From contig NZ_BLVP01000043.1 in assembly GCF_013340305.1 (NCBI RefSeq), positions 62,001 through 126,000 on the forward strand: 64,000 bases of DNA. The letters are read 5' to 3'. The notes below the pieces were generated by a model, which made no database searches, was not told the origin of the DNA, and saw only the letters and a list, made by a program, of their open reading frames with translations. The DNA is from Desulfovibrio psychrotolerans. GTDB lineage: Bacteria; Desulfobacterota; Desulfovibrionia; Desulfovibrionales; Desulfovibrionaceae. Numbering within the stretch: the first letter of the stretch is position 1; every line of letters starts with the position of its first letter. The position numbers and the translations under genes are program-made. Positions 11,501-33,868 of the stretch are shown here, piece after piece.

Positions 11501-11780
11501 GGGGTTCCTCTTGGGGGTTGGCATGTGGGCGCCGGAGCGCAGGCAGTGCACGCCTTGGATAGCGTCTTGGCGGGGGTCAGGCAAGGGGGAGATGTGTGTG
11601 AATGTGGAATGAAAAGTGCATAAAAGGCTGATACCGGCTGTGCATAGAGAACGGCGAGAAGATGGTAGGCGCAACGGGGTTGCGATACGGACGGACAATG
11701 CTGGCTGCGTGCTCGGGAAAGACATTTCATCAAGCAGGGGCAGTACTGTTTACGATAGTGTGTTCAGGCAAGGAATGACG

Positions 11781-13934
11781 ATGAAGATAGTTTATATTGC
11801 TTTTATTGAGCCGAACTATGCGCAGATATTTAAAAAATTTGCAGCGCAGGTTAATGGTCTTGAAAAGGCGGGATATAACATAACGGGGGTTGTGCTCGGA
11901 TCTAAAGGAGCTGACTACTCCAGAGATAATATTATACACATTGTACATGAGTATGATAAAAAATATTATTTTTCCGCTTGTATAAGTATGTTGGAGGAGT
12001 TGTCTCCGGATGTTGTGCTGTTCAGATATCCAGTTGCAGATAAAATGCTTTATGATTTTATGTGCAGTGTGCGATGTAAGGTTGTTTTTGAGCATAATAC
12101 TATTGAGGTTAACGAAGTTTCCGGCGCATCGCTTGAAGGTGAGTTGGTGTGGGGGGAGAAGTGTTTGAAGCGTGCTTCCGGCATTGTTGGAGTAACCCAT
12201 CAGATTTTATCACATCAGATTGAACGTAGCGGGGGGGATACGCCTGGGGTTGTTATCCCGAATGGTTGTTCCCCTGAAGGATATTCCCTGTGCCATGGAC
12301 CGGGAAAACGTGATGAAATACACATCTTTTGTGCGGCCCGGTTTTCCAAGTGGCATGGAATTGACAGGGTTATCCGGGGATTGGCTCACTATCAGTCTGA
12401 CCCCCGAGTTGTTTTACATATTGCGGGGGACGGTGAAGAGATTTCGTCTTTGCTGCATCTTGCAGAGGATGTGGGGGTGTCGGCCAATGTTGTGTATCAT
12501 GGCAAGCTTGCCAAAGAAGAGCTTGAGGCGTTGTCCGCAGGGTGCCAGCTGGGGATAGGCAGTCTGGCGTATCATCGGCTTGGTCTTACGGAGATATGCG
12601 CCCTTAAGCATCGTGAATATGCGATACAGGGGATTCCGTTTGTGTATGCCGGCAGTGACCCGGATTTTTCCGCTGAGCTGCCATTTGTGCTGAGAACACC
12701 GCTGGATGAATCGCCCATTGATATTGCCACGTTGGCAAAATTTGCTGAAAAGGTGAGCATCGCTGCGGGGATACGGGAGCAGGAGAGGGAGTATGCCCTG
12801 CATGTTCTCAGCTGGGATAGAAAAGCCGTAAAGCTAGGGGCGTTTTTACAGTCTGTTGCGCACGGCAGCAGTGTTGTCGGGGAGGCGTCTCCCATGGTTT
12901 CTGTTGTGCTATCATGCCAAAATGAAAGTATTCATTTTGCTGATGCATACAAAAGTGTTGCTCACCAGACATGGAAAGATTTAGAGATTATTGTTGTTCA
13001 TGATGGAAACAATGATGAATTGCTGGATACCTATAAAAGTTTGCTTGAAAGATATCCTGATGTCGCATCGCGTATTATTCAGCAAAATGAACCGGGACTT
13101 GCCGGGTCATATAATTCAGGAATAGAATCTGCAAAAGGAAAGTGGATTGTACCTTTACAGGCAGATAATTTGATCAGGCCGTTTTTTGTCAGTCTGGCTA
13201 TGGAACATGTAGTCAGGCGTCCTGAGCTTAATGTGGTCTCCTGTGCGGTGCAGATGTTCGGGCATGAAACTGGTGTGTGGACTCCCAAGCGCTACTCCCC
13301 TGATGTTCTTAAAGAGGAAAATACGTTTCCCGGCGCATCATTATTCAGGAAGAGTTTGTGGCAGAGAGCCGGAGGGTATGCATCTGGGCATCCGTGGGGG
13401 CTGGAGGAGTGGAATTTCTGGCTCCGGTGCATGCGTGTGGGGCTGGTAGCCAAGCAGCTGCCTGAGCCTGCCGCGCTGGTGCGTACGCATGCCGGCGAGA
13501 GCAGGACTGCCCGTCCGGACGTTCGCAGGGAAGAAAGCAGAGCCATGCATCAGACGATGCTGGCGGATATTTACGGCATTTTGCCGGTTATTGATGCCCA
13601 CACCGTGCTGGCGCGTCTGTCTAAGGAATCCGAGGAGCGCATACGGGAACGGACAGAAGCATGTCCGGACCTGCCTTATCCTTATTTCTGGCTGGGGCTT
13701 GCCCACGAAGGGCGTGGCGAACTGCCTGAGGCATTGGGGTATTACCTGAAAGCGGCAGGCGTATCTTCTTTTGAAGAATGGCAGCCATATATGCGGCTTG
13801 TTCTGGTGAACCGGCATCTTGGGCGGAAAAAGGCGGAGGAAGCATCTCTTCAGGCACTCATGGAGCGATGCCCTGAGGTGGGAAGGCTGCTTGCCATGGT
13901 CGGAAAGACAGTTGACCGTCCCGGAAATGCATAA
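11781..13934 (+). CDS. Two-domain glycosyltransferase (GT4-like plus GT2) with C-terminal helical repeats
   Basis: A 717-aa cytoplasmic protein; the ATG at 11781 follows AAGGA by 6 bp. Residues about 1-370 resemble a GT-B glycosyltransferase (GT4 type), with FEHNTIEVNE, ASGIVGVTHQI and EYAIQGIPFVYAGSD. Residues about 373-600 form a GT2 (GT-A) domain opening VSVVLSCQNE, though the usual DxD is replaced by LQADN. The last 100 residues contain TPR-like helices (YFWLGLAHEGRGELPEALGY). It is the first gene of the plus-strand glycan operon and probably adds two sugars in succession. Its first 1.5 kb is clearly AT-richer than flanking genes, suggesting horizontal origin. The N-terminal half is paralogous to the C-terminus of the gene ending at 23252. 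Confidence 0.85.
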   Translation: MKIVYIAFIEPNYAQIFKKFAAQVNGLEKAGYNITGVVLGSKGADYSRDNIIHIVHEYDKKYYFSACISMLEELSPDVVLFRYPVADKMLYDFMCSVRCKVVFEHNTIEVNEVSGASLEGELVWGEKCLKRASGIVGVTHQILSHQIERSGGDTPGVVIPNGCSPEGYSLCHGPGKRDEIHIFCAARFSKWHGIDRVIRGLAHYQSDPRVVLHIAGDGEEISSLLHLAEDVGVSANVVYHGKLAKEELEALSAGCQLGIGSLAYHRLGLTEICALKHREYAIQGIPFVYAGSDPDFSAELPFVLRTPLDESPIDIATLAKFAEKVSIAAGIREQEREYALHVLSWDRKAVKLGAFLQSVAHGSSVVGEASPMVSVVLSCQNESIHFADAYKSVAHQTWKDLEIIVVHDGNNDELLDTYKSLLERYPDVASRIIQQNEPGLAGSYNSGIESAKGKWIVPLQADNLIRPFFVSLAMEHVVRRPELNVVSCAVQMFGHETGVWTPKRYSPDVLKEENTFPGASLFRKSLWQRAGGYASGHPWGLEEWNFWLRCMRVGLVAKQLPEPAALVRTHAGESRTARPDVRREESRAMHQTMLADIYGILPVIDAHTVLARLSKESEERIRERTEACPDLPYPYFWLGLAHEGRGELPEALGYYLKAAGVSSFEEWQPYMRLVLVNRHLGRKKAEEASLQALMERCPEVGRLLAMVGKTVDRPGNA

Positions 13935-13952: not shown

Positions 13953-15044
13953 GTGAAGATAGTATCGCTGGTCGGTGCACGGCCACAATTTATCAAAGAA
14001 GCCATTCTCAATGCTGAGGTAGTGGCAACGCATGCGTGGACGCATGTTCTTGTGCATTCAGGGCAGCATTACGATGCGCGAATGTCGGATGTTTTTTTTG
14101 ATGAGCTGGGAATTCCCCCTCCGCAGTATCATCTTGGTGTGGGGTCGGGAAGCCATGCGGAAATGACCGCGGCAATGTTGCTTGGAGCGGAAAGAGTGCT
14201 CAAGGCAGAAGCGCCGGATGCCCTGCTTGTCTACGGAGACACGAATACCACGCTGGCCGGGGCGTTGGCCGCTGCCAAGCTGAATATTCCGATTATCCAT
14301 GTTGAGGCGGGTATCCGGCAGCAGCCGGAAAGCATGCCCGAAGAAATTAACCGGGTGGTTACGGACAGGCTTTCTGCATTGTTATGCTGCTGTTCAACGC
14401 TGGCGGCGGAGAATTTGGCGCGGGAGGGCTGTAAGGCGGCGGTTGCGGTGACGGGCGATATAATGTGCGACCTGTATAAACGCATGGAGCCGCGCATTGC
14501 TGTTCTGGAACCGTGGCTTCCGCTGGGCGTGTCGCCAGAGAAGTTTATTGTGGCAACCATCCACAGGGATTTTAATACAAACCGCGCAGAACCGCTCAGG
14601 GAGATACTGGCAGGACTGAACCGGCTGAGCCGAGAGGCTGCATTGCCCGTTCTGCTCCCGTTGCACCCCGGCACAAGGAAGTGCATTGCCCGGTTTGATC
14701 TGGATGGACATGTAGGGGCACTGCAGGTGCTGCCGCCCCTTGGCTATGTGGAACTTATGGCACTGGTCAGGGCATCTGCCTGTGTTGTGACAGACAGTGG
14801 CGGATTGCAGAAGGAGGCGTATTACGCCGGACGGCGTGCGGTTGTGATCATGCCCGACACCGGCTGGCGTGAGCTGACGGACTGCGGGTGGAACATTTTG
14901 TCAAAACCCGACGCGGGCGAGATTGCTCTTGCAGGGGCAGCGGCTATGCTGCAGGCGCAGTACCCGGAAAACATGTACGGGGCTGGCGATGCTGCACGGA
15001 ATATTGTGGGTTTTGTGAAAGACAGACTGGGCGGGAAACGATGA
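13953..15044 (+). CDS. Non-hydrolysing UDP-N-acetylglucosamine 2-epimerase family (WecB/WbpI-like)
   Basis: Predicted to epimerise C2 of a UDP-2-acetamido sugar. The 363-aa protein begins at a GTG 18 bp after the preceding gene, with AGGGGG as ribosome site. Family hallmarks are MKIVSLVGARPQFIK at the N-terminus, YGDTNTTLAGALAA, HVEAGIR, MPEEINRVVTD and LLPLHPGTRK (the catalytic Asp, Glu, Glu and His of the family). Because the operon also has WbpD-, WbpE- and WbpB-like genes, the likely substrate is UDP-2,3-diacetamido-glucuronic acid (WbpI role) rather than plain UDP-GlcNAc (WecB role). The substrate is an inference from context. Confidence 0.88.
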   Translation: MKIVSLVGARPQFIKEAILNAEVVATHAWTHVLVHSGQHYDARMSDVFFDELGIPPPQYHLGVGSGSHAEMTAAMLLGAERVLKAEAPDALLVYGDTNTTLAGALAAAKLNIPIIHVEAGIRQQPESMPEEINRVVTDRLSALLCCCSTLAAENLAREGCKAAVAVTGDIMCDLYKRMEPRIAVLEPWLPLGVSPEKFIVATIHRDFNTNRAEPLREILAGLNRLSREAALPVLLPLHPGTRKCIARFDLDGHVGALQVLPPLGYVELMALVRASACVVTDSGGLQKEAYYAGRRAVVIMPDTGWRELTDCGWNILSKPDAGEIALAGAAAMLQAQYPENMYGAGDAARNIVGFVKDRLGGKR

Positions 15045-17947
15045 ACGCGGAACTTCTTGAACAGGCTGTGAAGGGGCTGGAAAGCACCGGGAAGCGGCCG
15101 AAGAACCTGCATGCAGCAGTTATTGATTACCTGACAAATACGGGGGAATCGGCTGTTCTTGTTGATTGGCTTATGCAGTCACACCGTTCAGAAGGCTCTG
15201 TTAAGGCTCCTGAGCTTGATAAGCCCTTAATCTCTGTTGTTATTCCGTGCTACAACCATGCTGAGTATCTGCCTGATTGCATAAGAAGCGTTGTGAGCCA
15301 GTCTTTTTCAGAGCTGGAGATTATTGTCATAAACGACGGGAGTTCTGATAATACGGAGAGTGTGGCAAAGGCGTGCATAGATGCGTATCCGCAGCACAGA
15401 ATACGGTATTATGCACAGCCCAACTCCGGGCTTGTTGCCTCGCGGAACAAAGGGATAACGCGGGCAAAAGGAGAGTTTATTCTCCCCCTGGACGCCGACG
15501 ACCTGATTGCTCCGTCGTTTCTGGCACAGACGGTTCCCGTGCTCATGGCGCATGCTCATTTCGGGTATGTGAGCACCAAAGCGCTCTTTTTTGGGGATGT
15601 GAACAAGATCTGGCCGGCTCAGGAATTTAATCCGCTGTCGTTTTTCTTCATGAACCAGCAGACGTGCACGACATTATTCAGAAAAAGCATGTGGAGAGAA
15701 CTGCACGGCTACCGTTCGGAAATGGTGCATGGGTATGAGGATTGGGAGTTTTGGATTCGTGCCACGCAACAGGGCTGGGCAGGAGCACAGATTGCTGAGC
15801 CGCTGTTTTTTTACCGCCGGAAGAAACAGTCTATGCTGATGGATTCCCGCAGCAAAGACGTTATGATCAAGGAACAGATCGTTCGCCTGAACCCCGCTGT
15901 CTATGATGCGTCTATTCTGCCGCAGGTACAGGACGAACTGACGCGTCCCAACTGGATTCCGCCCCGGCTCATCCGTGAGAATATTGCCATTCGCAGGCGG
16001 CAGGCAGCGGGAGAAGAACCGCTGAACCACAATGGGATTGCGGCGCAGCAGGAAGCATTGGCTGAGAGGGTGCGCAAGGCGATAGCCTACATTGTTCCGG
16101 AGATTGCCCCGTACATAGCGCAGGCAAAGCCGGCGGGGGCTGCTGATGCTTTTGCCGCACTTGCCCGGCAGATTATTGCCCGCACCCATAAGTTTTTTGA
16201 GCTTCAGAGTCCTGAGCGTGCCGTTGAAATGGCGGCAATACTGCTTGCCCAGTATCCGCTGGAAAAACTGGCGGTAACACATGCCATGCAAACGCTTGCC
16301 CGGGCAGGGAACATTGCGCCGGCACACGCACTGGGCGGCTTTTACCTGTCACTGTGGCACTGGGACAGGGATATCCTTGAGTTTTTTTCGCAACTGTTCA
16401 GCATTCAGGCAAGTATTGCAGAATCCCCGGCTCAGAAGCTGGGGCTGTATGAAGGGGCGGCCCTGTTTGCGCCCCACTCCTCACGGGCGTTCGGTGAACT
16501 GTATGCGTTTGAAGTGCAGGCGGGCATGCTGTCTGTTGCAGAGCGGACGCTGTGTCAGGCCATGGGCTTTTCTCATACCCTTACCGACCTTGCTGCCCCT
16601 TCTGCACCTGCCCCATGTTCCGCCACCCGGAATACGGCCCGCGAGCGGAAGCACATATGGTACGTCGCAGACGGATTTGGTGCCTCGAACAGCGGAGTGA
16701 ACGGCGTGACTCAGGCAAGGTTTATGACCTTGGCTTCCCTGCTCTACAACGATGATCTTTGCGATATAACAATTATCACCCCCATGGATCTGGGGCTGCC
16801 CGGCGCCATTGCCGAATTTGCCCGTCATTGCCACGCCCTGAGAGACAAGCAGAATCCGCCATGGCCCGAATGGATACCCACGGTGCGCAGAAATGCTCAT
16901 TCTGCTATGGGGATTACCGAGCAGTCCTTCATGCAGGGGGAATGGCTTCCCTGCAGGCTGCCCGGCAGCAAGCCGGACCTGATCATCATTGAAGGAGTGA
17001 GGAGGCTGCCCCATGATTATCTGCAGGAGCTGGGGCTGCCCTTTGCGTGTCCGACAGTCTATATGAACCACAACTCCCCGTTCCACTTCGCCGCCGATAT
17101 TACGGACGACAGTTCTCTTGCCGCGATGGTGGATGCCTTGCGAAACTACACCGTGAATATCTGTGTGGCTGAAAACGTGACAAAGGAGTGGCAGGCTATT
17201 CCGGAGCTTGCACACAACAAGTCGCTGACCATTCACAATTGCATCCGGGAAGATGAGGCGGCCGAGGTTGCCGCCAAGTCTGCAGCGCAAACCCGTGCAA
17301 AGCTTGGCCTGCCGGAGAATGCCTTTTTGATCATATGTCTTGCGAGCATTCAGGTGCGCAAGGGGCAAGATATTCTTCTTGATGCCATGGGCGCAATAGT
17401 TGCGGAAATTCCTGACGCGCAGCTTCTTCTGGTGGGGCCGGTGCTTCCCGGTTTCGGAGGGGAGGGCATTGTGCAGCAGGCGCAGCGTTCACCGCATGCA
17501 GACCGGATTCATATTCTGGGCCCCCGTGACAATGCGCTGGAGTATCTCTACGCCGCTGACCTGTCTGTGCTCCCTTCACGGGGAGAGGCCCTGCCGCTCT
17601 CCATACTTGAAGGAATGGTGCTTGGCACTCCGTGTGTGGCTTCTGATGTAAACGGGATCCCTGAGCTTGTTGTCCATGGAGAGACGGGCTACATGTTCCC
17701 GCTTGCTCAGCCCCATATGCTCGCGGAGTATGTGATTGCCCTTGCAAGAGATTCTGCAAGCCTTGCATCTATGGCTGAAAAAGGGCGGGAGCGGTATTGG
17801 AAGCATTTTTCACGCGAAAAGCATGTGCAAAGATGGCGTGAAGTGCTCATGGAGATCTTTGCTTGTCATAGTTCCGACGCAGAATCCCATCAGAGGGATT
17901 GTGCGCAGCCGGATGCAAAGGATTTTTCTGCGCGTTTGCATCGCTGA
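15041..17947 (+). CDS. Bifunctional GT2-GT4 glycosyltransferase
   Basis: A 968-aa soluble protein whose ATG overlaps the epimerase stop by 4 bp (ATGA). An N-terminal GT2 domain spans about residues 60-300, with LISVVIPCYNHAEYL, IINDGSSDNTE-like nucleotide-binding sequence, the acidic LDADD, and HGYEDWEFWIR. A middle helical region follows, then a GT4 domain at about 550-950 with ICLASIQVRKGQDILL, RIHILGPRDN and the donor-binding GEALPLSILEGMVLGTPC. It should transfer two different sugars. It lies between the epimerase and the acetyltransferase, so it may use the diacetamido uronic acid made by its neighbours. The donor sugars cannot be read from sequence. Confidence 0.87.
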   Translation: MNAELLEQAVKGLESTGKRPKNLHAAVIDYLTNTGESAVLVDWLMQSHRSEGSVKAPELDKPLISVVIPCYNHAEYLPDCIRSVVSQSFSELEIIVINDGSSDNTESVAKACIDAYPQHRIRYYAQPNSGLVASRNKGITRAKGEFILPLDADDLIAPSFLAQTVPVLMAHAHFGYVSTKALFFGDVNKIWPAQEFNPLSFFFMNQQTCTTLFRKSMWRELHGYRSEMVHGYEDWEFWIRATQQGWAGAQIAEPLFFYRRKKQSMLMDSRSKDVMIKEQIVRLNPAVYDASILPQVQDELTRPNWIPPRLIRENIAIRRRQAAGEEPLNHNGIAAQQEALAERVRKAIAYIVPEIAPYIAQAKPAGAADAFAALARQIIARTHKFFELQSPERAVEMAAILLAQYPLEKLAVTHAMQTLARAGNIAPAHALGGFYLSLWHWDRDILEFFSQLFSIQASIAESPAQKLGLYEGAALFAPHSSRAFGELYAFEVQAGMLSVAERTLCQAMGFSHTLTDLAAPSAPAPCSATRNTARERKHIWYVADGFGASNSGVNGVTQARFMTLASLLYNDDLCDITIITPMDLGLPGAIAEFARHCHALRDKQNPPWPEWIPTVRRNAHSAMGITEQSFMQGEWLPCRLPGSKPDLIIIEGVRRLPHDYLQELGLPFACPTVYMNHNSPFHFAADITDDSSLAAMVDALRNYTVNICVAENVTKEWQAIPELAHNKSLTIHNCIREDEAAEVAAKSAAQTRAKLGLPENAFLIICLASIQVRKGQDILLDAMGAIVAEIPDAQLLLVGPVLPGFGGEGIVQQAQRSPHADRIHILGPRDNALEYLYAADLSVLPSRGEALPLSILEGMVLGTPCVASDVNGIPELVVHGETGYMFPLAQPHMLAEYVIALARDSASLASMAEKGRERYWKHFSREKHVQRWREVLMEIFACHSSDAESHQRDCAQPDAKDFSARLHR

Positions 17948-18049: not shown

Positions 18050-18616
18050 ATGATTTCTATTCACCCCACTGCCTGCGTTGATGAGGATGTGACTATCGGC
18101 GAAGGCTGCCGCGTCTGGCATTTTTCGCACATCCTTTCAGGAAGCCGCATCGGAGAGAACTGCAATATAGGGCAGAATGTGGTTATCGGCCCGCGGGTGC
18201 AGATAGGCAGCGGGTGTAAGATTCAGAATAATGTGAGTGTTTACAGCGGAGTGACGCTGGAAGATGATGTTTTTTGCGGACCAAGCATGGTGTTTACCAA
18301 TGTCTGGAATCCGCGGGCGCATATCCGCCGGATGGACGAGATGCGGCCCACCCTTGTGCGCAAAGGGGCGAGTCTGGGAGCCAACTGCACCATTGTCTGC
18401 GGGGTGACCATTGGGCGATACGCATTGGTGGGGGCAGGGGCGGTGATAACAAAAGATATTCCTGACCATGCGCTTGTGTATGGGAATCCCGGCCGGCACA
18501 AGGGATGGGTTTGCGAGTGCGGGGAAAAACTGGACACTAAGCTTGTTTGCCCGGTATGTAACTTGCATTTTAGAATGCGTGAAGCTGGGGAACATCATGG
18601 TCTGGAGGGTATTTGA
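18050..18616 (+). CDS. Hexapeptide-repeat N-acetyltransferase (WbpD-like)
   Basis: Left-handed beta-helix acyltransferase of 188 aa; the ATG at 18050 follows GAGG by 5 bp. Repeats of the type [28 protein letters not shown] and [14 protein letters not shown] are plain, and WHFSHI is typical of the WbpD group, which acetylates the 3-amino group of UDP-GlcNAc(3NH2)A. The C-terminus adds a zinc-ribbon-like CECGEK...CPVC pair of cysteine knuckles beyond the usual fold. It is followed by the aminotransferase and oxidoreductase that would make its substrate. Confidence 0.88.
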
Positions 18617-18618
18617 GT

Positions 18619-19788
18619 ATGGAGTTCATCGATCTTAGTCGCCAGCAGAAGCGCATTGCAGAAGCCATACGGCTCCGGACAGAGGCGGTGTTTTCCCATG
18701 GGCATTATATCATGGGGCCTGAGGTGAAGGAGCTTGAGTCCCGATTGGCAGAGTATGCGGGAAGCAGGCACTGCCTGTCGTGTTCATCCGGCAGTGACGC
18801 GCTGCTCATGCTGCTTATGGCGTGGGAAGTGGGGCCCGGAGACGCGGTTTTTGTTCCGGCATTTACTTTTTTTGCCACGGCGGAGATGCCCGCCCTGCTG
18901 GGCGCAACCCCCATTTTTGTGGACATAGACCCGGTAACGTTCAACATGGACCCTGCCTGCCTTGCCCGCGCGGTGCAGGCGGTGAAATTACAGGATGTGT
19001 CATTGCATCCGCTGCCCCCTGCGGCATTGGAAGCGGCGCCGTTGCGTGCCCGGTGTGTTATTCCCGTTGACCTGTTCGGGCAGGCTGCCGCGTATGAGCA
19101 GATTCTGCCCCTTGCCGAATCAGAAGGTCTGCTGGTGCTGGAAGACGGCGCACAGGCATTTGGCGGAACATGGATGGGGAAGCGCGTGTGCGGTCTTGGT
19201 TGTCACGGCGCGGCCACATCGTTCTTTCCGGCAAAGCCGCTGGGGTGCTATGGGGACGGAGGGGCCATTTTCACCGATGACGATGCCCTTGCCGCTGAAC
19301 TTGCTTCTGTGCGCGTTCATGGCAAGGGAACGGATAAGTATGACAATCGCCGTATAGGCATCAATGGCAGGCTGGACACGATGCAGGCTGCCATTTTGCT
19401 GCCCAAGCTGGATATTTTTGCAGAAGAGCTGGAGCGCAGGGAACAGGTTGCGGCGTGGTATGCCCGGGGGCTTTCGGACGCTTGCGGCGTAACTGTGCCA
19501 CGATTGGCAGGCGGGAGGACAAGCGTGTTCGCCCAGTATACCATACGTGTGCCACAGGGGCGGAGTGATCTGGCCAGTGCTTTGAAAGAGCAGGGTATTC
19601 CTACCAATATCTATTATCCCAAGCCGTTGCATGTGCAGGGAGCCTTTGCGGAGCACGGACTTGCCGCCGATGCGTTTCCTGTGGCGGCGCAAAGTTGCGA
19701 AGAGGTGCTCTCGCTGCCTTTCCATCCCTACATGGAAAGGGACGAGGTGGAGCGTGTGTGTGCTGTTATTTCGGACCATTGTAGTTAG
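18619..19788 (+). CDS. DegT/DnrJ/EryC1 aminotransferase (WbpE-like)
   Basis: PLP-dependent sugar aminotransferase, 389 aa, predicted to convert a UDP-3-keto-uronic acid into the 3-amino sugar. The ATG at 18619 has GGAGGG 9 bp upstream; a TTG six bases earlier is also in frame. Motifs are CSSGSDALLMLL (phosphate-binding turn), PAFTFFATAE, EDGAQAFGG and the Schiff-base lysine in SFFPAKPLGCYGDGG. The neighbouring WbpB-like and WbpD-like genes support a 2,3-diamino-uronic acid pathway. A second, only distantly similar family member sits in the facing operon (23283-24434). Confidence 0.9.
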   Translation: MEFIDLSRQQKRIAEAIRLRTEAVFSHGHYIMGPEVKELESRLAEYAGSRHCLSCSSGSDALLMLLMAWEVGPGDAVFVPAFTFFATAEMPALLGATPIFVDIDPVTFNMDPACLARAVQAVKLQDVSLHPLPPAALEAAPLRARCVIPVDLFGQAAAYEQILPLAESEGLLVLEDGAQAFGGTWMGKRVCGLGCHGAATSFFPAKPLGCYGDGGAIFTDDDALAAELASVRVHGKGTDKYDNRRIGINGRLDTMQAAILLPKLDIFAEELERREQVAAWYARGLSDACGVTVPRLAGGRTSVFAQYTIRVPQGRSDLASALKEQGIPTNIYYPKPLHVQGAFAEHGLAADAFPVAAQSCEEVLSLPFHPYMERDEVERVCAVISDHCS

Positions 19789-19800
19789 CTGGAGGGGCGT

Positions 19801-20856
19801 ATGCTGTACCAGAATATCAAGAACCGGAAGATCAAGGTGGCGCTGGTGGGCTGTGGGCGCATTGCGGGTAAGCACTTTGAAGCAATTGCGGCGCACTCTG
19901 AAGATTTGGAATTGGTGGCCGTGTGCGACGACAATCTGGAAACGCTTGAGGCCTATGCCCGGAAGTATCAGGCCCGGCCTTATGGCAGCTACGCCAGATT
20001 GGTGGCGGAATGTGACTGCGATATGGTGATCTTGTGCACGCCTTCCGGTTTGCATTCGCAGCAGACCATAGAGGCGGCGAGGCACAGGAAGCATGTCATG
20101 AGCGAAAAGCCCATGGCGACACGCTGGAAAGATGGTCTTGCCATGGTGCAGGCCTGCGATGAGGCGCGCGTGCGGCTTTTCATCGTGAAACAGAACCGCC
20201 GGAACGCCACAATTCAGTTGCTCAAGCGGGCAATAGACGAAAAGCGTTTCGGGCGCATTTATATGGTGCAGGTAAACGTGTTCTGGACACGGCCGCAGGC
20301 ATATTATGATTCTGCCAAGTGGCGCGGCACGTGGGAAATGGACGGCGGGGCCTTTATGAATCAGGCCAGCCACTATATTGATCTGCTGGACTGGCTTATC
20401 GGGCCGGTGGCGGATGTGCAGGCCATGACCGGATCGCTTGCGCGGGACATTGAAGTGGAAGATTCCGGGGTAATTAACGTGCGCTGGCGTACCGGAGCAC
20501 TGGGCTCCGTGGCCGTTTCCATGCTGACCTATCCCAAGAACCTTGAAGGCTCCATCACCATTATCGGGGAGAAGGGCACGGCGCGCATAGGCGGCGTGGC
20601 TGTGAACGAGGTGCAGCTGTGGGATTTTGCCGAACCCCGTGACTATGATGCCGACCTGTCCAGTGCCTCGTATGAGACGACATCTGTGTACGGCTTCGGA
20701 CACCCTTTGTACTACAAGAATGTTGTTGATACGCTGCGCGGGAATGCGGAACCGGAAACCGACGGCAGAGAAGGCCTGAAGTCGCTGGAAGTGCTTATTG
20801 CCGCCTACATATCCGCCCGTGACAGAAGAACGATTTCTCTGCCGCTGGAGTATTGA
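19801..20856 (+). CDS. Gfo/Idh/MocA oxidoreductase (WbpB-like)
   Basis: NAD-dependent sugar dehydrogenase, 351 aa, with a strong GGAGG 5 bp before the ATG. The N-terminal Rossmann fold is IKVALVGCGRIAGKHFEAI; the EKPMA motif (SEKPMATRW) of the family follows, then the C-terminal beta-sheet domain with GGAFMNQASHYIDLL carrying the conserved histidine. Sequence and context match WbpB/WlbA, which oxidise C3 of UDP-GlcNAcA for transamination. The partner dehydrogenase that makes UDP-GlcNAcA (WbpA type) is absent from the window. The C-terminus also contains TRPQAYYDSAKWRGTW, typical of this subgroup. Confidence 0.9.
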   Translation: MLYQNIKNRKIKVALVGCGRIAGKHFEAIAAHSEDLELVAVCDDNLETLEAYARKYQARPYGSYARLVAECDCDMVILCTPSGLHSQQTIEAARHRKHVMSEKPMATRWKDGLAMVQACDEARVRLFIVKQNRRNATIQLLKRAIDEKRFGRIYMVQVNVFWTRPQAYYDSAKWRGTWEMDGGAFMNQASHYIDLLDWLIGPVADVQAMTGSLARDIEVEDSGVINVRWRTGALGSVAVSMLTYPKNLEGSITIIGEKGTARIGGVAVNEVQLWDFAEPRDYDADLSSASYETTSVYGFGHPLYYKNVVDTLRGNAEPETDGREGLKSLEVLIAAYISARDRRTISLPLEY

Positions 20857-20972: not shown

Positions 20973-23252
20973 ATGATATATTGGTTTAATCCACAGTCCA
21001 TACAGCTTGGAATGCGTGTTGAGCTGCCGATAGGCAGACGGGAAGAGCTTATACTCGATGGAGACTGGGATAAGGATGTGATGCCCTTTGAGAAATCTGT
21101 TAATTTTTATGGATCGTTCAAGCAGCGTCTTTCAGGAGTCCCCTGGGAGGAAACGGAATATTTTAAGAAAAATGTGGATCAGATTGAATCCGGAATGACC
21201 AAATGGGGCTGTAAAGACAGAGAGGAGTTTCTTACCAGGTGCTACAGTCTGGAAAAGGTATACGTTTCCATAAAAGACAATGGGTATATTCAAATAGGAG
21301 ACGTAGATTGCATATCCATTGCATTGGATAGATATGGGAGGCCACTTTTCTGCAATGGCCGGCACAGGCTTTCGATTGCCAAATTGCTCAACTTGCCCTC
21401 CGTTCCGGTACGAATACTTGCTCGTCACCGGAATTGGGTTGATTTTTGTAACAAGGTGGATGCGTACGCCCAGAGTACGGTTGGAAAGGTTTATGCCCCT
21501 TTGGCCCATCCGGATTTGATAGACAGGGGCGCCCTGCACAAGGCGCGAACGCAGCATATCATTGAGAACATGCTTCCGTCCTCGCAGACGGTGATGGATA
21601 TAGGCTCACACTGGGGCTATCTTCCGACTCTCATTGAGCAGACGGGAAGGCACTGTGTGGCTGTGGAGCAAAGCCAGCGGTTTCTCTATTTCATGAACGG
21701 GTTGCGTAAGGCGAATGGTCTTTCTTTTGATGTGGTTTCTGAAGATGTGTTTCGCTACGTGGGCACGGGGAAAAAGTTTGATACCGTGCTGGCCCTTGCC
21801 ATTTTTCATCACTTTTTGAAAACCGAAGAGCAGCACGAAGCCCTGCGGACGATGCTGCGCAACCTTGAAATGGAAGAACTCTTCCTTTTAACACACGCCC
21901 ATAATGAAGCGCAAATGCGCGGTGCTTACGTAAATTATGCCCCGGAAGAGTTTGCTCAGTTCATTGTGGACAATTCCTGTCTGGACTGGATTGTACCACT
22001 GGCCTCATTTGACGGGCGAGTTCTGTATCGCATAGGAAAGAAGGCGAATGAACATACCTATCTTAAGTATGATGATGATTTTAAGATTGTTTTTTTTGCG
22101 TTTGCCAATGGAAATACGCCGCATATATTAGACAAGGTAAACGGACAGTTTAAAGGACTTCGATCCTGCCATCCCAACAGCATGTGCGTGGTTATGGGAG
22201 AAGGAAGCGATGACGTGGATGTCTCGCGCTACGACTTTAATTATATAGATTTGCGTCATATTCCAGACGGCTGTCAGAATAAGGGGTCCATTGCGGTGAC
22301 TCTTTTGCGCAAGCTCGCGCCGGATGTGGTGTATATGCGTTATTCCGTTGCAGATGAGCACCTTGTTTTACTATGCCGTTCCATTCCTAACATAATTCTT
22401 GAGCATCAGACAAAAGAGCTGGACGAGTTGATTCATCTCGACAAAGATCTGTACCTTCGCGAGCTTGCAATGGGAACGCCTTGCCTGCACCGTGCGGCGG
22501 GAATTGTTGGGGTGACACCGGAAATTGCCCGCTATGAGCGGGCACGTTCTGGAGGACGAGTCACTACACGGGCGATGGGCAACGGTATCGCCCCGGATGC
22601 GCATCCCCTTTCCAAGCGCCCCAAGCCTGCCGGACGGATAGAGGGGCTTGTGGTGGCCGAATTCCGTTACTGGCACGGGCTTGACAGGCTAATCGCCGGA
22701 TTTGCAGCCGCCCCCTCTGTCGCACGGAAGATGCTGATTCATGTTGTCGGGTCTGGAGCCGCTCTGGAAGGATACCGAGACCAGATATGTGCCTGCGGAC
22801 TTGAAGATTGCTTTGTGTTTCATGGCGCACTGACGCCGGAGCAGGTTGATCCTTTGGCAGACAGGTGCGCCTTTGCTGTTGGGGTGCTGGCTCCGGGACG
22901 CAAGCGACTTACGGAGACTGCGGCGTTGCAGCATCGGGAATACGCCTTGAGGGGGCTGCCTTTTCTATTCGCCGGGAGCGATGTTGATTTTTTAGCCCGA
23001 CAGCCATTTTGTCATGTAATTCCCGATGATGAAAGTCCTGTCGACATGTTGGCTATGCTTGGCTTCGCAAAGCAAGCATTACAGAAGCCCGCATTGCGGC
23101 TGCATGCCAGAGAGTACGCTCTGCAAAATTTGGATTGGGCGGTGAAGATGCAAATTCCGGTCTCCTTGTGCCGATACGTTATGGCAAAGAATCATTCCCC
23201 AAGGCAGAGCGTTGCCGACGGTACAACAGGAAACCGCCTGCAAGATTCCTAG
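20973..23252 (+). CDS. ParB-like / SAM methyltransferase / GT4-like glycosyltransferase fusion
   Basis: A 759-aa three-part protein. Residues about 1-150 hold a ParB/sulfiredoxin-like region with ILDGDWD, WEETEYF and FCNGRHRLSIAKLL (128-141). Residues about 200-350 are a class I methyltransferase (VMDIGSHWGYLPTL, CVAVEQS). Residues about 370-740 are a GT-B domain resembling the first gene of this operon (EHQTKELDEL, AAGIVGVTPEIARYE, EYALRGLPFLFAGSD). The chosen ATG has AAGGA 9 bp upstream; an in-frame TTG at 20853 overlapping the previous stop is the alternative. It is the last gene of the operon. Its middle is AT-rich. A role in transferring and methylating a terminal sugar is a guess. Confidence 0.78.
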   Translation: MIYWFNPQSIQLGMRVELPIGRREELILDGDWDKDVMPFEKSVNFYGSFKQRLSGVPWEETEYFKKNVDQIESGMTKWGCKDREEFLTRCYSLEKVYVSIKDNGYIQIGDVDCISIALDRYGRPLFCNGRHRLSIAKLLNLPSVPVRILARHRNWVDFCNKVDAYAQSTVGKVYAPLAHPDLIDRGALHKARTQHIIENMLPSSQTVMDIGSHWGYLPTLIEQTGRHCVAVEQSQRFLYFMNGLRKANGLSFDVVSEDVFRYVGTGKKFDTVLALAIFHHFLKTEEQHEALRTMLRNLEMEELFLLTHAHNEAQMRGAYVNYAPEEFAQFIVDNSCLDWIVPLASFDGRVLYRIGKKANEHTYLKYDDDFKIVFFAFANGNTPHILDKVNGQFKGLRSCHPNSMCVVMGEGSDDVDVSRYDFNYIDLRHIPDGCQNKGSIAVTLLRKLAPDVVYMRYSVADEHLVLLCRSIPNIILEHQTKELDELIHLDKDLYLRELAMGTPCLHRAAGIVGVTPEIARYERARSGGRVTTRAMGNGIAPDAHPLSKRPKPAGRIEGLVVAEFRYWHGLDRLIAGFAAAPSVARKMLIHVVGSGAALEGYRDQICACGLEDCFVFHGALTPEQVDPLADRCAFAVGVLAPGRKRLTETAALQHREYALRGLPFLFAGSDVDFLARQPFCHVIPDDESPVDMLAMLGFAKQALQKPALRLHAREYALQNLDWAVKMQIPVSLCRYVMAKNHSPRQSVADGTTGNRLQDS

Positions 23253-26802: not shown

Positions 26803-28608
26803 TTATTTGATGAGCAGGGCAACCCACGTCTTAAGCAGGCCTTCTTCGTAGTCGGGAGCGGGGTCTGCGGCCTCCGGCCGACCGAAAAAGCTTTGGAGCC
26901 GCCACAGGCAATTGCTGTATCCGGCATGTTTTGCGGTTTCGAGAAATTCTTCCGGATAATGGCAGGACCATTTATTGGTTTCCGGCATGATGGCGGCCTG
27001 TGCTGCCGCCTGCTGCTGCCGGGACAGGTCCAGTCCGAGCTGGCTGGCACAGAGGCAGAGGTGGCGCAGGCAATGCGTGCCCACCAGCTGCTTTAATTCC
27101 GGCGAATAGGCGCGCACAACCTCTGCCATTCGGGTGGGAACAGTTTCCATGATGCGGTCAAGAATTTCTGCCCGATCTGTGCGTAGGATGTTCTGATGGT
27201 CCTCTGCGGACGTAAGATAGTTCTGTAGTACCTGCGTGCCCCCTACCCTTCTGTGGAAGGTGTTCCAGAGCAGGCGGGAATAATTTTCTGCGTTCATGCC
27301 TTTTTTGATTATGGCATGTTGATAGAAGCCGTCTCCGTTCACAGTGATAAGCACGGTCGCGTTTTTTTGTGCATACCGATTGAACAGCACCAGCACCCTG
27401 TCGTGCTCCACAAGATGGATGACGCCACGGGCGCAGATAACATTGAAGAGTTCTTTTTCAAAAAGTTTATCCTCAAGACTGCCCGGCACAAACGAGATGT
27501 TGTCTATCTGAAGTGCATGGGCCACACGGATTCCTGTATCCAGAGCTTTCTGGTTTGTGTCCATGCAGACCGCATGGGTAAACCGCTCACTCGCGGGAAA
27601 GCACAGGTTCCCTGCGCCGCCGCCAGCATCCAGCAGTGTGCCTCCTGTGAGGCCCAGCGCGTGTATTACATCGGAAAAATAGGAAATCTTTTCTCTGTCG
27701 AACTGGGTCTTGTAGTAATTGTCCAGATCCAGAGATTCTGTTTGTACGCAGGTTTTGCCGATTCTCCGAACCTCCTGCTCAAGGGGCTTGTTTGCCTCCT
27801 CATCAAGAAGTTCCGTCAGGGGAACCACCGCAACCTGTCCCGCAGTCTGCATTTCTGCCAGCAGAGCCAGTGCAGCCATGCCGTCGCGGCGGAGTAATGG
27901 AGCGGTCGCGCCATCGTTCTCCTTGCCTCTGGTGCCCCAATGCGTGAAGAATACTACGTTCTGCTCGTTGGCAATTGCCTGCTCAAGAGACCGGCGGGTG
28001 ATGAGCTCATGCATGGTCCATGCATTTGTCGTCCATGATGGTGCATATCGGGTGAAGGTTTGAATCGCATCTCCTGAAGGCGTCCGCTCCGGTACGATGG
28101 TGCGGTACGGCTCCTGAAGGGTGTGGCGCAGACGGTGGGAGAGCCAGAAATATTCCACGCCGTAGTCTTTTATCGCATCCAGAATGTAGTGCTCGGAGTA
28201 GGGCAGGTCGCCTTGCTGGTAGGTGCGCGACCCCTGCCCGGCAATATTGTGAACGTGGTTGCTGCTTCCGTGATTGGACCAGATGCGTATGTGTATGCCG
28301 TGCGAGTCCAGATAATCCAGAGCCCGTTTTATGTCGTCGATTGCGGGGTAGAGTGGGGTGCGTCCATAGGCACCTATGCCATGGAGCGTATCTATGCGCC
28401 CTTCTTTAAGCGCACCGAGAAGGTTGTCGTGGTTTGTCCCTTTCCGGGCTGTGGATTCCCTGAACAGAGCCATATCCGAATCTTCAGGGGAGAACAGCCA
28501 GAACGAATCCCCTGCAGGCAGACCCAGAGTCTCCAGCACGCCATGCACATACTGGTAGCCAGCCCATGTCATCTGGTCACAATCGTTCGCGAACGCAATC
28601 TTTATCAT
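26803..28608 (-). CDS. Polysaccharide-deacetylase-like / SAM methyltransferase fusion
   Basis: A 601-aa protein; the ATG at 28608 has GGGAG 6 bp upstream. Residues about 1-260 look like a NodB-type polysaccharide deacetylase fold: an early acidic FANDCDQ, a histidine cluster WSNHGSSNHVHN and VVFFTHWG near the end. The assignment is from pattern only, and the histidine spacing is not the textbook HxxxH. Residues about 300-440 are a class I methyltransferase with TLLDAGGGAGNLCF and ICARGVIHLVEH. The remaining 160 residues are helical. It may process a sugar attached to a carrier; the fusion is not one I know as a described enzyme. Confidence 0.65.
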   Translation of the reverse strand: MIKIAFANDCDQMTWAGYQYVHGVLETLGLPAGDSFWLFSPEDSDMALFRESTARKGTNHDNLLGALKEGRIDTLHGIGAYGRTPLYPAIDDIKRALDYLDSHGIHIRIWSNHGSSNHVHNIAGQGSRTYQQGDLPYSEHYILDAIKDYGVEYFWLSHRLRHTLQEPYRTIVPERTPSGDAIQTFTRYAPSWTTNAWTMHELITRRSLEQAIANEQNVVFFTHWGTRGKENDGATAPLLRRDGMAALALLAEMQTAGQVAVVPLTELLDEEANKPLEQEVRRIGKTCVQTESLDLDNYYKTQFDREKISYFSDVIHALGLTGGTLLDAGGGAGNLCFPASERFTHAVCMDTNQKALDTGIRVAHALQIDNISFVPGSLEDKLFEKELFNVICARGVIHLVEHDRVLVLFNRYAQKNATVLITVNGDGFYQHAIIKKGMNAENYSRLLWNTFHRRVGGTQVLQNYLTSAEDHQNILRTDRAEILDRIMETVPTRMAEVVRAYSPELKQLVGTHCLRHLCLCASQLGLDLSRQQQAAAQAAIMPETNKWSCHYPEEFLETAKHAGYSNCLWRLQSFFGRPEAADPAPDYEEGLLKTWVALLIK

Positions 28609-28648
28609 TCTGCTCTCCCAAAAAGCGTTACTCCGGGTAACGGTGCTC

Positions 28649-28684
28649 CGGTTGACCCGGTTAATCAGGTTGGCCCGGTTGATT
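28649..28684. repeat. 9-bp tandem repeat, four units
   Basis: The unit is CGGTTGACC with variants CGGTTAATC, AGGTTGGCC and CGGTTGATT. It spans the C-terminal codons of the methyltransferase gene and the 52-bp gap to the next gene. Confidence 0.7.
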
Positions 28685-29836
28685 CGGGACATGCACAGCA
28701 ACCGCGTAGGCCTTCATTTTTTCTTGAACGGCTTGCCAGTAGACAGGGCTGATTGCCAGAGCGAGGTCTGTGACGTTCATCTTCTTCATATCTTCCGGGC
28801 CGATGACCGGAATCGTATCAATATCTCTTCCCCACACGTTTGGATTCTCATCCACGAAACAAGCAATGTCTGGTTTGCAATCGAGCAGTAGATGCGCCAT
28901 GGACCCTATGGGGGATGTGCCGAAGACAGCAGCTCTGCCTCCCTTTTTCCGGGCGGAGAAGACCGCCTGCCGCACGCATTCTATGGTGCTGATGGCTGTC
29001 TGCTCGCATGCTTCAGCCACTCGCAGGGCTTGTGCCACGCATTCGGCAGAGGGCATCTGGCTTCGTTCCTGAAGCGACTGTGCCTGATAGAACATGACTC
29101 CGTCATTGTTTTCCGCAAATGTTCCGAAACCGGCTGCGGCGCTTAATGCTTTAAGCAGAGAAGGTGTCAGCTTGTTGATGTGGTCGGCGCAGAAGAGATC
29201 GCCCGGCAATTTTTCGAAGTTCGGGTGCTGCATCAGCAGCACACCGTCTTCTGTAAGGTGGCTGCGTATCCATTCCAGCGCATGCAGGGGGTTGGCGACG
29301 TGTTCCAGCACGGATGTGACCACGATCATATCGAACGTGGCATCGGTATCTACAAGATAATACGGAGTGTTGTACGCGGCGTGCAGCGTAACTTGCTGCC
29401 GGAGGGATGAGAAGCCGTCTCCGGGTTCTATGGCGGTTATCTCCCAGCGGGGATACCGCGCCTGAAAACAGGCAAGAAAGGCTCCGGTTCCCGCGCCGAA
29501 ATCCAGCAGGCGTCCGAATTCCGGGGGCTGGTACAGATCGAGGAAGGTATCAAGGGCCTTTTGATGGCTGCTTACCACCGTTCCGGAAGAAAAGTTAAGC
29601 AGCTGGGGTTTGGGTTTCCATGTGGCGTTGCTGTATACCTGCTCTTCAATGCCCCTGACGCCCCGGGCGTTGAAAATGCACCCGCAGGCGGTGCAGACCC
29701 GGTTGTCCAGCACCACGTCGTCTAGGAAGAACATTTGTGACGTTATGCACCGCCCGGCATACTCCGGATACAGCTTCCGGTATTGGAAAGCGCCGCACAC
29801 CGGACAGGCAACAGGGGTTTCTGCCTTAAGGTTCAT
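28661..29836 (-). CDS. NDP-sugar C-methyltransferase-type SAM methyltransferase
   Basis: A 391-aa protein with the three-part layout of sugar C-methyltransferases: an N-terminal zinc-binding part with CPVCG and CTACG (about residues 11-55), a central SAM domain with LLDFGAGTGAFLACF and VVTSVLEHVANP, and a C-terminal Rossmann-like part (RAAVFGTSPIGSMAHLLLDC). This layout is known from C-3/C-5 methyltransferases of deoxysugars. Its final codons (VPNQPGQPD) are encoded by a 9-bp tandem repeat, so the C-terminus may vary between strains. It is 8 bp downstream of the radical SAM gene. Confidence 0.8.
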   Translation of the reverse strand: MNLKAETPVACPVCGAFQYRKLYPEYAGRCITSQMFFLDDVVLDNRVCTACGCIFNARGVRGIEEQVYSNATWKPKPQLLNFSSGTVVSSHQKALDTFLDLYQPPEFGRLLDFGAGTGAFLACFQARYPRWEITAIEPGDGFSSLRQQVTLHAAYNTPYYLVDTDATFDMIVVTSVLEHVANPLHALEWIRSHLTEDGVLLMQHPNFEKLPGDLFCADHINKLTPSLLKALSAAAGFGTFAENNDGVMFYQAQSLQERSQMPSAECVAQALRVAEACEQTAISTIECVRQAVFSARKKGGRAAVFGTSPIGSMAHLLLDCKPDIACFVDENPNVWGRDIDTIPVIGPEDMKKMNVTDLALAISPVYWQAVQEKMKAYAVAVHVPNQPGQPD

Positions 29837-29844
29837 GGTTAAAC

Positions 29845-31158
29845 CTACTTCGCTGCAGTTTTGGAGTTATCTACCCAACTGCCCTGAATATCTTCGATAT
29901 TGCTGTAGATGGACCAGCAACGCATGCAGCCGTAGTACGCGCCGTGTTTGCGCAGAGTGATCCGTTGCTCCCGCATGGTTTTGCCGTTCCAGATATCAAG
30001 CAGAGAATGCTCCATGACGTTGCCCAAGGAAGGGAGGATGCACTGCGGAAGCGGCTTGATATGCCCTTCAGGATTAATAAACAGGGTATGCCAGTGGGTT
30101 TCGCACCGGCTGGACGGATAGACGCCCGCCTCGTCCGAGAGACAGAAGTCCAGATTGGGGGCTGTAAAATCCGGGCGGAAGTTGATACGCGCGCCCCGAG
30201 AGATGTAGCGATCTTCAATATATGCCTTTTGCTTGAGGAGAACGGCGGGTTCGATCTTGCTCAGGTCTACATACTGGGCGCTGGTTTCTTCTACGGTTGC
30301 TCCGCTTATCTCCGCGTGATGTTCATTGTGCATCTGCACCATTTTTTTGGAAATGTAGTTGAACATGTAGACCCCGATGAACATCTCATCAAGAAGGCCA
30401 AGCCGGTCAAGATCATCGATAAAGGCACCGAGATGCTGGTAGTTTTTATCGTTGACCGTGAAGTAGCACCCGAGTTGCATATCAAGGCCGCGTTCCCGGC
30501 GCATGTCTGCAAGCATTCTCAGGCCGGTGGTGATCTGTTTGTACGCTCCCTTCACGCCGCACAGGGAATCGTGCACGGCTTCCGGGCCGTCCAGAGAAAC
30601 ACGCAGGGCATCAATTTCCAGCGCTGCCAGACGGTCTGCAAACTTGGGAAGCAACAGGCCATTGGTGAGCATGGAGAAGGGCAGATTCTTCTCTTTGGTG
30701 TACTCGATAAAGGGGATTAGCTGGGAATAGAGCAGGGACTCCATCCAGGGGATGCGGATGGTGGGCCTGTACCATGCGGATTCGTCAATAACCCTTTTGC
30801 ACACGTCGAGCGGCAGCTCCAGCTTGGCGCGTGGGTTGATGACGTTATGCAGCACCTTGGTGTTGCTGCTTCCTTCTTCTTCTGCTCTGCCGTGGCTTAA
30901 GTCGCAATACGAGCACTTAAGGTTGCAGCGGTTGTTTACGCAGAAATTGATCGTGTGCGGAGGGAGAGAATACCCGTCTTCGCTGGTCTCGTACACGGAG
31001 GATTGAAGAAGGTGCAGTGCCCTGCTTGTTTTGTAAAGAGGGACGCCAAGACCGTGCATATAGTTCACATAATTAGCATAGGCGTTCCGGGCGCGGGTTC
31101 CGCTCTCGGTCAATCCGGAATCTGTGAGCCATTCTTGGGGAGACGTACTTTGAAACAT
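29845..31158 (-). CDS. Radical SAM protein with SPASM-like C-terminus
   Basis: A 437-aa radical SAM enzyme. The ATG at 31158 has AGGAG 6 bp upstream. The [4Fe-4S]-SAM motif CxxxCxxC is RCNLKCSYCD (about residues 76-85), with flanking TINFCVNN. The C-terminus has several cysteines spaced as in SPASM/twitch auxiliary-cluster domains (RCETHW, QCILPSLGN, YYGCMRCWS) and INPEGHIKPL, a common SPASM landmark. SPASM proteins modify peptides, sugars or amino acids. Neighbouring sugar enzymes point to a sugar or sugar-linked substrate (dehydrogenation or epimerisation). The actual reaction is unknown. Confidence 0.88.
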   Translation of the reverse strand: MFQSTSPQEWLTDSGLTESGTRARNAYANYVNYMHGLGVPLYKTSRALHLLQSSVYETSEDGYSLPPHTINFCVNNRCNLKCSYCDLSHGRAEEEGSSNTKVLHNVINPRAKLELPLDVCKRVIDESAWYRPTIRIPWMESLLYSQLIPFIEYTKEKNLPFSMLTNGLLLPKFADRLAALEIDALRVSLDGPEAVHDSLCGVKGAYKQITTGLRMLADMRRERGLDMQLGCYFTVNDKNYQHLGAFIDDLDRLGLLDEMFIGVYMFNYISKKMVQMHNEHHAEISGATVEETSAQYVDLSKIEPAVLLKQKAYIEDRYISRGARINFRPDFTAPNLDFCLSDEAGVYPSSRCETHWHTLFINPEGHIKPLPQCILPSLGNVMEHSLLDIWNGKTMREQRITLRKHGAYYGCMRCWSIYSNIEDIQGSWVDNSKTAAK

Positions 31159-31172
31159 CCTCTTCTCCTGCT

Positions 31173-32252
31173 TCAGCAACTGTTACCTAGGTTCTGCTCT
31201 TCCGGAAGAAAGGTTTCCTCCAGCCGGCGCATAACTATTCCCTGATTGTACGCAAAGCGGACAGGTATATCCTCATTCAACACGTGCCGCCTGATCAGGC
31301 AGTCCGGCTCGTTGAAGCCGACCAGTGCCCTGAGCGAGGTGGTGCCGGAAAAGCGGGGGTTAATTTCAAACACCCACACTTTGTTGTCAAAATAACGACA
31401 CTGAATGTTCAGTGGTCCAGCAGAGCCGATTGACGTTGCAATCTCTTCACATGTGGCGGTCACTTCAGGATAGGGGCCGATAGCTCCCTGGGAAATGCCG
31501 CTGCTGATAACCAGCATGTCTCCAAGCTCTCTGCGTTCTGTTCTGTTCGGCACCCTCAGCCTGCGGCTCAGCGCTAAATTCAGGTTTCTGTGCACCGCAA
31601 TGGAGTTCAGAAATGTGCCGTTCATATCGCTGAGTATGCCCACGGTGTACTCGCCTGCCGCCGTGCCTACATACTCCTGCGCGATGAACTCCGGATAAGT
31701 CTTTAGCAAAAAACGTGCAAAAAGACTCGCTTCTTCTTTGTTCTGGACGATTACGGTGTCAACTGATCCTCCTCCGCCCGTAGAGGGCTTGAACACCACA
31801 GGATAGCTAGCAAAACTTGCCGCCTGTTCTTCGCTGCGCACGCGCACGTACCATGGCACGCAAAAACCCTTGCCGGAAAGCATTTCAAATGTGGCCACCT
31901 TGTCCAGACAGGCGGTGATGACCCCGGAAGGGTTTATGGGCAGGAAAATGCCCATGTCGCGGAACACGTTCCTGTTCCGGCTTATTTCCACCAGCTCCGC
32001 TTCCGACCCCGGAAACAGGGCCTGAACCCTATGTTTTTTGCACAGGCTCACCAATTGTTCGATGTAGTCCGCCGCCCTGGCCGGCGGGAGCGTTGCGGGT
32101 ACGTTTACCAGTCCGAATCCCGTACTGTGTGGGCACGAGTCTGTGCCGATGATATGATACGGAGTTTGTGCAGCGCGCAGTGCCTTGACAATCTGCTCGC
32201 CGATGGAGGCACCGCCGACTCCGGTGACGCAAACGGGGATAGGGGAGATCAT
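31173..32252 (-). CDS. ATP-grasp ligase-family protein
   Basis: A 359-aa protein with an N-terminal Rossmann-like preATP domain (VCVTGVGGASIGEQIV) and an ATP-grasp fold resembling the carbamoyl-phosphate synthase large subunit: VVFKPSTGGGGSVDTV (nucleotide loop), FIAQEYVG, and the metal-binding VFEINPRFSG. Such enzymes join a carboxylate to an amine or thiol through an acyl phosphate. AAAGGAG lies 5 bp before the ATG, and it overlaps the upstream gene by 4 bp. Since the facing operon makes a uronic acid, amidation of that carboxylate is a plausible but untested role. Confidence 0.85.
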   Translation of the reverse strand: MISPIPVCVTGVGGASIGEQIVKALRAAQTPYHIIGTDSCPHSTGFGLVNVPATLPPARAADYIEQLVSLCKKHRVQALFPGSEAELVEISRNRNVFRDMGIFLPINPSGVITACLDKVATFEMLSGKGFCVPWYVRVRSEEQAASFASYPVVFKPSTGGGGSVDTVIVQNKEEASLFARFLLKTYPEFIAQEYVGTAAGEYTVGILSDMNGTFLNSIAVHRNLNLALSRRLRVPNRTERRELGDMLVISSGISQGAIGPYPEVTATCEEIATSIGSAGPLNIQCRYFDNKVWVFEINPRFSGTTSLRALVGFNEPDCLIRRHVLNEDIPVRFAYNQGIVMRRLEETFLPEEQNLGNSC

Positions 32253-32953
32253 GGAAACTCCTTTATTGTGCCAGCAAAGGCTGGGGGGCGTCTGTCAAGG
32301 CATGCCCGGACGAGCGGGTGTGCCTGTTGTCGTAACCGATCGGAACAGGCAAACGGAAGGCGGATAATCTCTGCCGACAGAGAGGGCAGGTCCAGAATAG
32401 CCAGCGAGAGCAGGTCGCCCCTGTCTCTGGGAAGACCGCAGGAGCCCGGATTAAGCAGCAGGGCGCGTTCCGTATGGTGCAAATGCGGCCTGTGCGTGTG
32501 TCCTGTCAGAATGCAATCCACATCCTTGTCGGAGACCAAGTCGCCAATGTCATGTCCGTAGCCTTCCAGCGGGGCACCTGGGGTGCCGTGCACGAGCAGC
32601 AGGCGGACCCCCGCAATCTCCAGCGTGCGTTCCGGACCGACCCGTTCTATATGCCGCTGCCACGACCCGGAAACAGGTGTGCCAATGCGTTTCAGTCCAT
32701 AGAGGGCATCCTTATCGGGAGGAAGAGGAAGTCTGCCCAGAAGCATGGCGTCGTGATTGCCCATGACGCATTGGGCATTGTGACGCATAAGCAGGCGGGT
32801 TACGGCACCGGCATGAGGGAAGTAGCCTACGGCATCTCCCAGAAAGAGCACGCTGTCGACAGAGCGGGTCTGCATATAGCGCAGGCACTGCATCAGCGCG
32901 GCAATGTTGCCGTGCGCATCGCTGATAACTCCTAACCTGATGGCCTGCACCAT
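32249..32953 (-). CDS. YfcE/MJ0936-type metallophosphoesterase
   Basis: Calcineurin-like phosphoesterase of 234 aa with all five metal-site blocks: GVISDAHGN, LFLGDAVGYF, VMGNHD, LLVHGTPG and LTGHTHRP. These proteins hydrolyse phosphodiesters or phosphomonoesters; small stand-alone forms are often of unknown substrate. It is the first gene of the minus operon and overlaps the ATP-grasp gene by 4 bp, so a role on a phosphorylated sugar intermediate is likely. No strong ribosome site is visible before the ATG, and the 197-bp upstream gap must hold the operon promoter. Confidence 0.9.
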   Translation of the reverse strand: MVQAIRLGVISDAHGNIAALMQCLRYMQTRSVDSVLFLGDAVGYFPHAGAVTRLLMRHNAQCVMGNHDAMLLGRLPLPPDKDALYGLKRIGTPVSGSWQRHIERVGPERTLEIAGVRLLLVHGTPGAPLEGYGHDIGDLVSDKDVDCILTGHTHRPHLHHTERALLLNPGSCGLPRDRGDLLSLAILDLPSLSAEIIRLPFACSDRLRQQAHPLVRACLDRRPPAFAGTIKEFP

Positions 32954-33840: not shown

Positions 33841-33868
33841 GCGGTTTCTCCCTGCTTAGAGTCAGCGT

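Follow-up and report, generated by a model that had tools for sequence, protein, structure and literature searches.

A Desulfovibrio fusion of a ParB/sulfiredoxin-fold domain, a WbdD-like methyltransferase and a glycosyltransferase as a candidate glycan-capping enzyme

A three-domain fusion within a run of glycan genes

We analysed a window of 64,000 nucleotides from the 3.8 Mb genome of Desulfovibrio psychrotolerans, in which an ORF runs uninterrupted from an ATG at 20973 to a stop at 23252. The frame is open upstream as far as a TTG at 20853; the ATG is supported as the start by relatives, which share its MIYW methionine as their first residue. The first-pass annotation had read this ORF as a fusion of a ParB/sulfiredoxin (Srx)-like domain, a methyltransferase and a glycosyltransferase (GT), and the ORF, Pfam matches and the architecture of relatives bear out all three (Table 1). 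The fusion is real rather than a product of chance or frame error, as the architecture is kept by three full-length relatives from another genus of the Desulfovibrionaceae, whose first domains are 47–54% identical to this one. A fourth relative (first domain 43% identical) bears two extra GT modules.

Genes on the plus strand form a single run leading up to the fusion, with more glycan genes beyond it on the opposite strand as far as 35.1 kb. One gene of the run presumably encodes a DegT/DnrJ/EryC1-type aminotransferase. In relatives, the fusion gene is immediately followed by, or fused to, a homologue of the GT2-GT4 gene, while two Halobaculum plasmids likewise carry a Gfo/Idh/MocA gene immediately before the first domain. 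A gene that groups with those for glycosyltransferases, nucleotide-sugar enzymes, sugar aminotransferases or flippases was present nearby in 35 of 46 loci, a raw count from greedy gene calling that misses genes in GC-rich loci; locus L018 scored none, though its annotation lists glycan genes. The DNA of the first domain has a GC content of 45.5%, compared with 58.2% for the window, and the domain was not found in nine genomes sampled from this genus, which together fit its horizontal gain.

Two other features were observed on the minus strand of the window. A 632-aa ORF (26803–28701) has about 350 residues without a Pfam match followed by a class I methyltransferase domain, every listed Pfam hit lying within residues ~340–454. 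Genes for Radical SAM/SPASM, ATP-grasp, calcineurin-like phosphoesterase, MobA-like NTP transferase and CDP-glycerol glycerophosphotransferase-like proteins stand in a row at 29845–35075, possibly for phosphoglycerol or amino-acid decoration.

Table 1 Features of the fusion gene, the genes leading up to it and one relative. Positions are those of the window unless another locus is named.
Feature	Position	Strand	Basis
GT4-GT2 fusion; GT4 is a paralogue of the triple fusion's GT; likely start near 11781	11616..13934	+	
UDP-GlcNAc 2-epimerase-like	13953..15044	+	
GT2-GT4 fusion	15041..17947	+	Pfam scan, relatives' loci
Hexapeptide-repeat acetyltransferase, WbpD-like by context	18050..18616	+	Pfam scan
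Aminotransferase, WbpE-like by context	18613..19788	+	sequence read directly
Gfo/Idh/MocA oxidoreductase, WbpB-like by context, adjoins the fusion upstream	19801..20856	+	
Triple-fusion protein, 759 aa	20973..23252	+	start backed by relatives
N-terminal domain, residues 1–186	20973..21530	+	ParB/Srx fold core ~83–155 (AF2, Foldseek)
GDWD motif, residues 30–33	21060..21071	+	column counts, 39 members
WEETEYF motif, residues 58–64	21144..21164	+	column counts, 39 members
NGRHR, residues 128–132, P-motif GxxR	21354..21368	+	column counts, 39 members
Class I SAM methyltransferase, WbdD-like, residues 190–365	21540..22067	+	Pfam, profile, fold
FHHF, residues 278–281; H279/H280 align with WbdD H132/H133	21804..21815	+	alignment
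R349, aligned with WbdD R203	22017..22019	+	MAFFT and global hhalign agree
GT-B/GT4-type glycosyltransferase, residues ~369–735	22077..23177	+	weak Pfam match and paralogue
Locus L014: polypeptide of 1704 aa (N-domain, methyltransferase, GT4, GT2, GT4)	9594–14708 of L014	+	

The first domain adopts a predicted ParB/Srx fold

An AlphaFold2 model of the first domain, built from 39 sequences, reached a pLDDT of 92.4 and contains the core of the ParB/Srx superfamily (Box I helix, two strands, and the GxxR helix and strand). Using Foldseek against the PDB, we found that 40 of its top 42 matches were Srx, ParB, KorB, Noc, SbnI, PadC or Pnob8 ParB; ranks 39 and 42, both the protein Atu1540, were not counted as ParB/Srx-fold. 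The shared part is a core of ~70 residues, which explains why the best E value was just 8.5e-3, with none below 1e-3 and low TM-scores; SbnI, for example, was superimposed at 2.4 Å over 56 columns. The ParB/Srx assignment of the first-pass annotation, which was to stand or fall by structure prediction, therefore held for residues ~83–155, whereas the GDWD and WEETEYF motifs that it had cited in support sit outside this core, in a family-specific N-terminal extension.

At the cut-offs of Pfam and NCBIfam, the first ~190 residues matched no family, and none of the 39 members matched PF02195 (ParB) even at E ≤ 0.1. The helix-turn-helix and C-terminal dimerisation domains of ParB-type proteins are absent, the remaining chain being methyltransferase and GT. 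SbnI and SerK are small-molecule kinases with the ParB/Srx fold that act on free serine. Weak NCBIfam matches were obtained to SbnI in five members (best E 2.6e-4) and to SerK in two (best E 5.3e-3), and none to ParB families. Where the alignment is shown, these matches span ~40 residues around Box II, and they stay well below the equivalog cut-offs (best 20.4 versus 350 bits for SbnI, 15.9 versus 380 for SerK). SbnI was also the best natural match of the family profile in the PDB, at a non-significant E of 0.037. Fold, GxHR P-motif and weak sequence similarity thus link the first domain to SbnI and SerK, while its distance from their family cut-offs, the GDWD/WEET extension and the glycan context set it apart.

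G129 and R132 of the P-motif, which lies in NGRHRLSIAKLL (residues 128–139 of the fusion protein), are invariant in 39/39 members, and in other ParB-fold proteins the P-motif arginine is required for NTP binding (PMC12704722). W58 is kept in 38 members; residue 33 is Asp in 38 and Glu in one, and hence acidic throughout. D33 is a candidate catalytic acid, its equivalence to the catalytic acid of SerK and SbnI being a guess from the sequence.

The methyltransferase resembles WbdD and shares its phosphate-methylation residues

WbdD caps the chains of E. coli O9a by phosphorylating the terminal mannose and then methylating that phosphate. The second domain of the fusion (residues ~190–365) passes the Pfam cut-offs of Methyltransf_25 and Methyltransf_11, and the top matches of its profile in the PDB were four WbdD sequences (E 2.5e-5), followed by PH0226 (4.9e-5). 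With a model of the first two domains (pLDDT 93.4, pTM 0.88), WbdD took Foldseek ranks 1–4 and 8 among 1080 matches at E ≤ 0.001. In an alignment of ten sequences, for which the WbdD letters were checked against the PDB entry, WbdD H132, H133, R203, R36 and D82 align with the invariant residues H279, H280, R349, R192 and E232, and the His-His-Arg set is unchanged in 12/12 intact relatives (this alignment plus L013 and G758). H132, H133 and R203 are essential to phosphate methylation by WbdD (PMC3482155). Judged by alignment, the methyltransferase is WbdD-like and carries these phosphate-methylation residues.

As a small control, 17 other methyltransferases of the genome were compared. An arginine alone fills the R349 column in 9 of them, making the terminal alignment noisy, but none has the combination of HH and R, which is accordingly the only unusual element. 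The pair could nevertheless bind a different group. His pairs also occur in other class I methyltransferases, NodS and RebM having two His or two Tyr at the site of the WbdD pair (PMC3482155), and the epimerase, acetyltransferase, aminotransferase and Gfo/Idh/MocA genes before the fusion form a wbp-like set suggestive of a diacetamido-uronic acid, so that the enzyme might methylate a carboxylate or hydroxyl, such as the carboxyl of this sugar, with the basic residues binding that group. We consider this quite improbable, given that WbdD is the top match by both profile and fold and that the pair persists in relatives at whose loci wbp-like genes were not seen.

No eukaryotic-type protein kinase domain was found in the chain by Pfam and NCBIfam scans. 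The GT domain (residues ~370–735) scored 18.6 bits against Glycos_transf_1 (PF00534), below the cut-off of 26.4, but it aligns at 37% identity over 361 aa with a GT encoded by a neighbouring gene, which clears the cut-off (35.2 bits). An EX7E motif in the fusion GT was dropped as evidence on finding that relatives lack it. The cap-recognition domain Wzt_C, which applies to O9a export and not to all caps, was not found in the genome.

The first domain recurs alone and fused to the methyltransferase

The first-pass annotation asked whether the fusion or its parts occur elsewhere, and triple, two-domain and stand-alone forms were all found. Short stand-alone proteins of ~220–330 aa, which it had also described, are common in haloarchaea and were recovered by profile search from Nanohaloarchaea and a few bacteria. 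The first domain with the methyltransferase (408–478 aa) occurs in WOR-3, Stahlbacteria, Muiribacterium, Nealsonbacteria, Desulfobacterales and one unclassified bacterium, and the triple form in Desulfovibrionaceae. This spread is a lower bound, as the contig scan of genomes used one strict pattern; L022 and L047 of the profile search are the same places as two hits of an earlier search for Desulfovibrio relatives. In a quick tree with many weak forks, the triple fusions form one group (SH-aLRT 97) within the two-domain forms, and one long-branch stand-alone row falls among the fused rows.

No copy of this methyltransferase type was found apart from the first domain: each of the 12 carrier genomes has a single, fused copy, and it was absent from every other of 395 genomes of the phylum. 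G758 holds a further fused copy, which we rejected as a case of separate genes because it reads as one gene interrupted by N runs in the assembly. The methyltransferase had no match in plasmids. The first domain had none in phages or, with a single sequence as query, in viral contigs; a viral contig fragment (L058) recovered by alignment search encodes a portion of the first domain, at the border of the retrieved sequence.

Some loci differ in copy number or in the motif. L034, L035, L037, L055 and L016 each contain the first domain twice. Remoter relatives in L015 (8631–9431), L016 (7100–7972) and L017 (8890–9585) read KGLHRLAMA or RGRHRLAAA where GRHRLSIAK would stand, and in two of them GDWD is present, with the order unchanged. 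Further neighbouring gene groups are common to L015 and L016.

In L014, GEHK replaces GRHR in the N-domain and the methyltransferase has lost DIG and FHHF, while the GT parts are retained. This joint decay, a single case, is suggestive of a joint function of the first two domains. With the fusion to methyltransferase and GT, it points to reactions that follow one another on a single glycan acceptor, and speaks against a first domain whose substrate is a free small molecule (such as serine, glycerol or a sugar) that is attached to the glycan after phosphorylation. The closest named kinases do act on free serine, and the region also holds genes for an NTP transferase and a CDP-glycerol glycerophosphotransferase-like protein, but we regard such a role as very unlikely.

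The ParB/Srx domain might instead bind a nucleotide and act as a switch or scaffold, regulating the methyltransferase or GT without phosphate transfer; a CTPase or scaffolding role had been suggested in the first-pass annotation. A fusion of a ParB fold with a SAM methyltransferase has been found to bind ATP, without a claim of kinase activity (PMC12704722), and the identity of the nucleotide is not readable from sequence. In many haloarchaea, however, the domain stands alone, with this methyltransferase absent from the fetched loci, which is easier to reconcile with an enzyme than with a regulator of the methyltransferase. Its weak relatives are kinases and not ParB, and the methyltransferase has the phosphate-binding residues of WbdD. 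These observations favour an enzymatic kinase role, and we judge a switch or scaffold unlikely.

Discussion

We put at about even the chance that the fusion is a WbdD-like glycan-capping enzyme with the ParB/Srx-fold domain as putative kinase. In the order of reactions that we infer, this domain would bind a nucleotide via the GxHR loop and phosphorylate a hydroxyl of a growing surface glycan. The methyltransferase would then methylate that phosphate, held by H279, H280 and R349 as in WbdD, while the GT would add sugar to the same glycan, placing elongation and capping on one polypeptide.

WbdD (E. coli O9a/K. pneumoniae O3) has the closest solved methyltransferase, the aligned HH and R, and a similar glycan-gene setting, but in WbdD a eukaryotic-type protein kinase follows the methyltransferase, with a coiled-coil ruler, whereas in the fusion the ParB/Srx domain comes first and the GT last. 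K. pneumoniae O7 offers a precedent in ORF6 (methyltransferase-kinase-coiled coil-GT2-GT2), a single chain that unites GT modules with a methyl-phosphate terminator whose kinase is unrelated to that of WbdD. ORF6 differs from the fusion in having an AmiN-like kinase, a CgnL-like methyltransferase and GTs of the GT2 type (PMC11231755). With two unrelated kinases already partnering a methyltransferase, in WbdD and O7 ORF6, a third such combination is plausible. ParB-CTPase-fold fusions with SAM methyltransferases were surveyed by Kaljevic et al. 2025 with PF02195 at the gathering cut-off (PMC12704722); there, too, the two domains are joined, but the present members lie outside that family.

More tentatively, and somewhat short of probable, the first domain may represent a new class of ParB/sulfiredoxin-fold kinases that act on glycans in Bacteria and haloarchaea. 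It would be the third unrelated type of kinase to be combined with a phosphate methyltransferase in making methyl-phosphate caps. Our literature search, which covered few subscription papers, did not link the ParB fold to glycan kinases. If the new class is real, a fold associated with DNA segregation and the phosphorylation of serine would have a further role as a kinase of surface glycans, in bacteria as well as archaea. A protein group without a Pfam or NCBIfam family would gain a testable function, and the finding that methyl-phosphate termination employs unrelated kinases would be extended.
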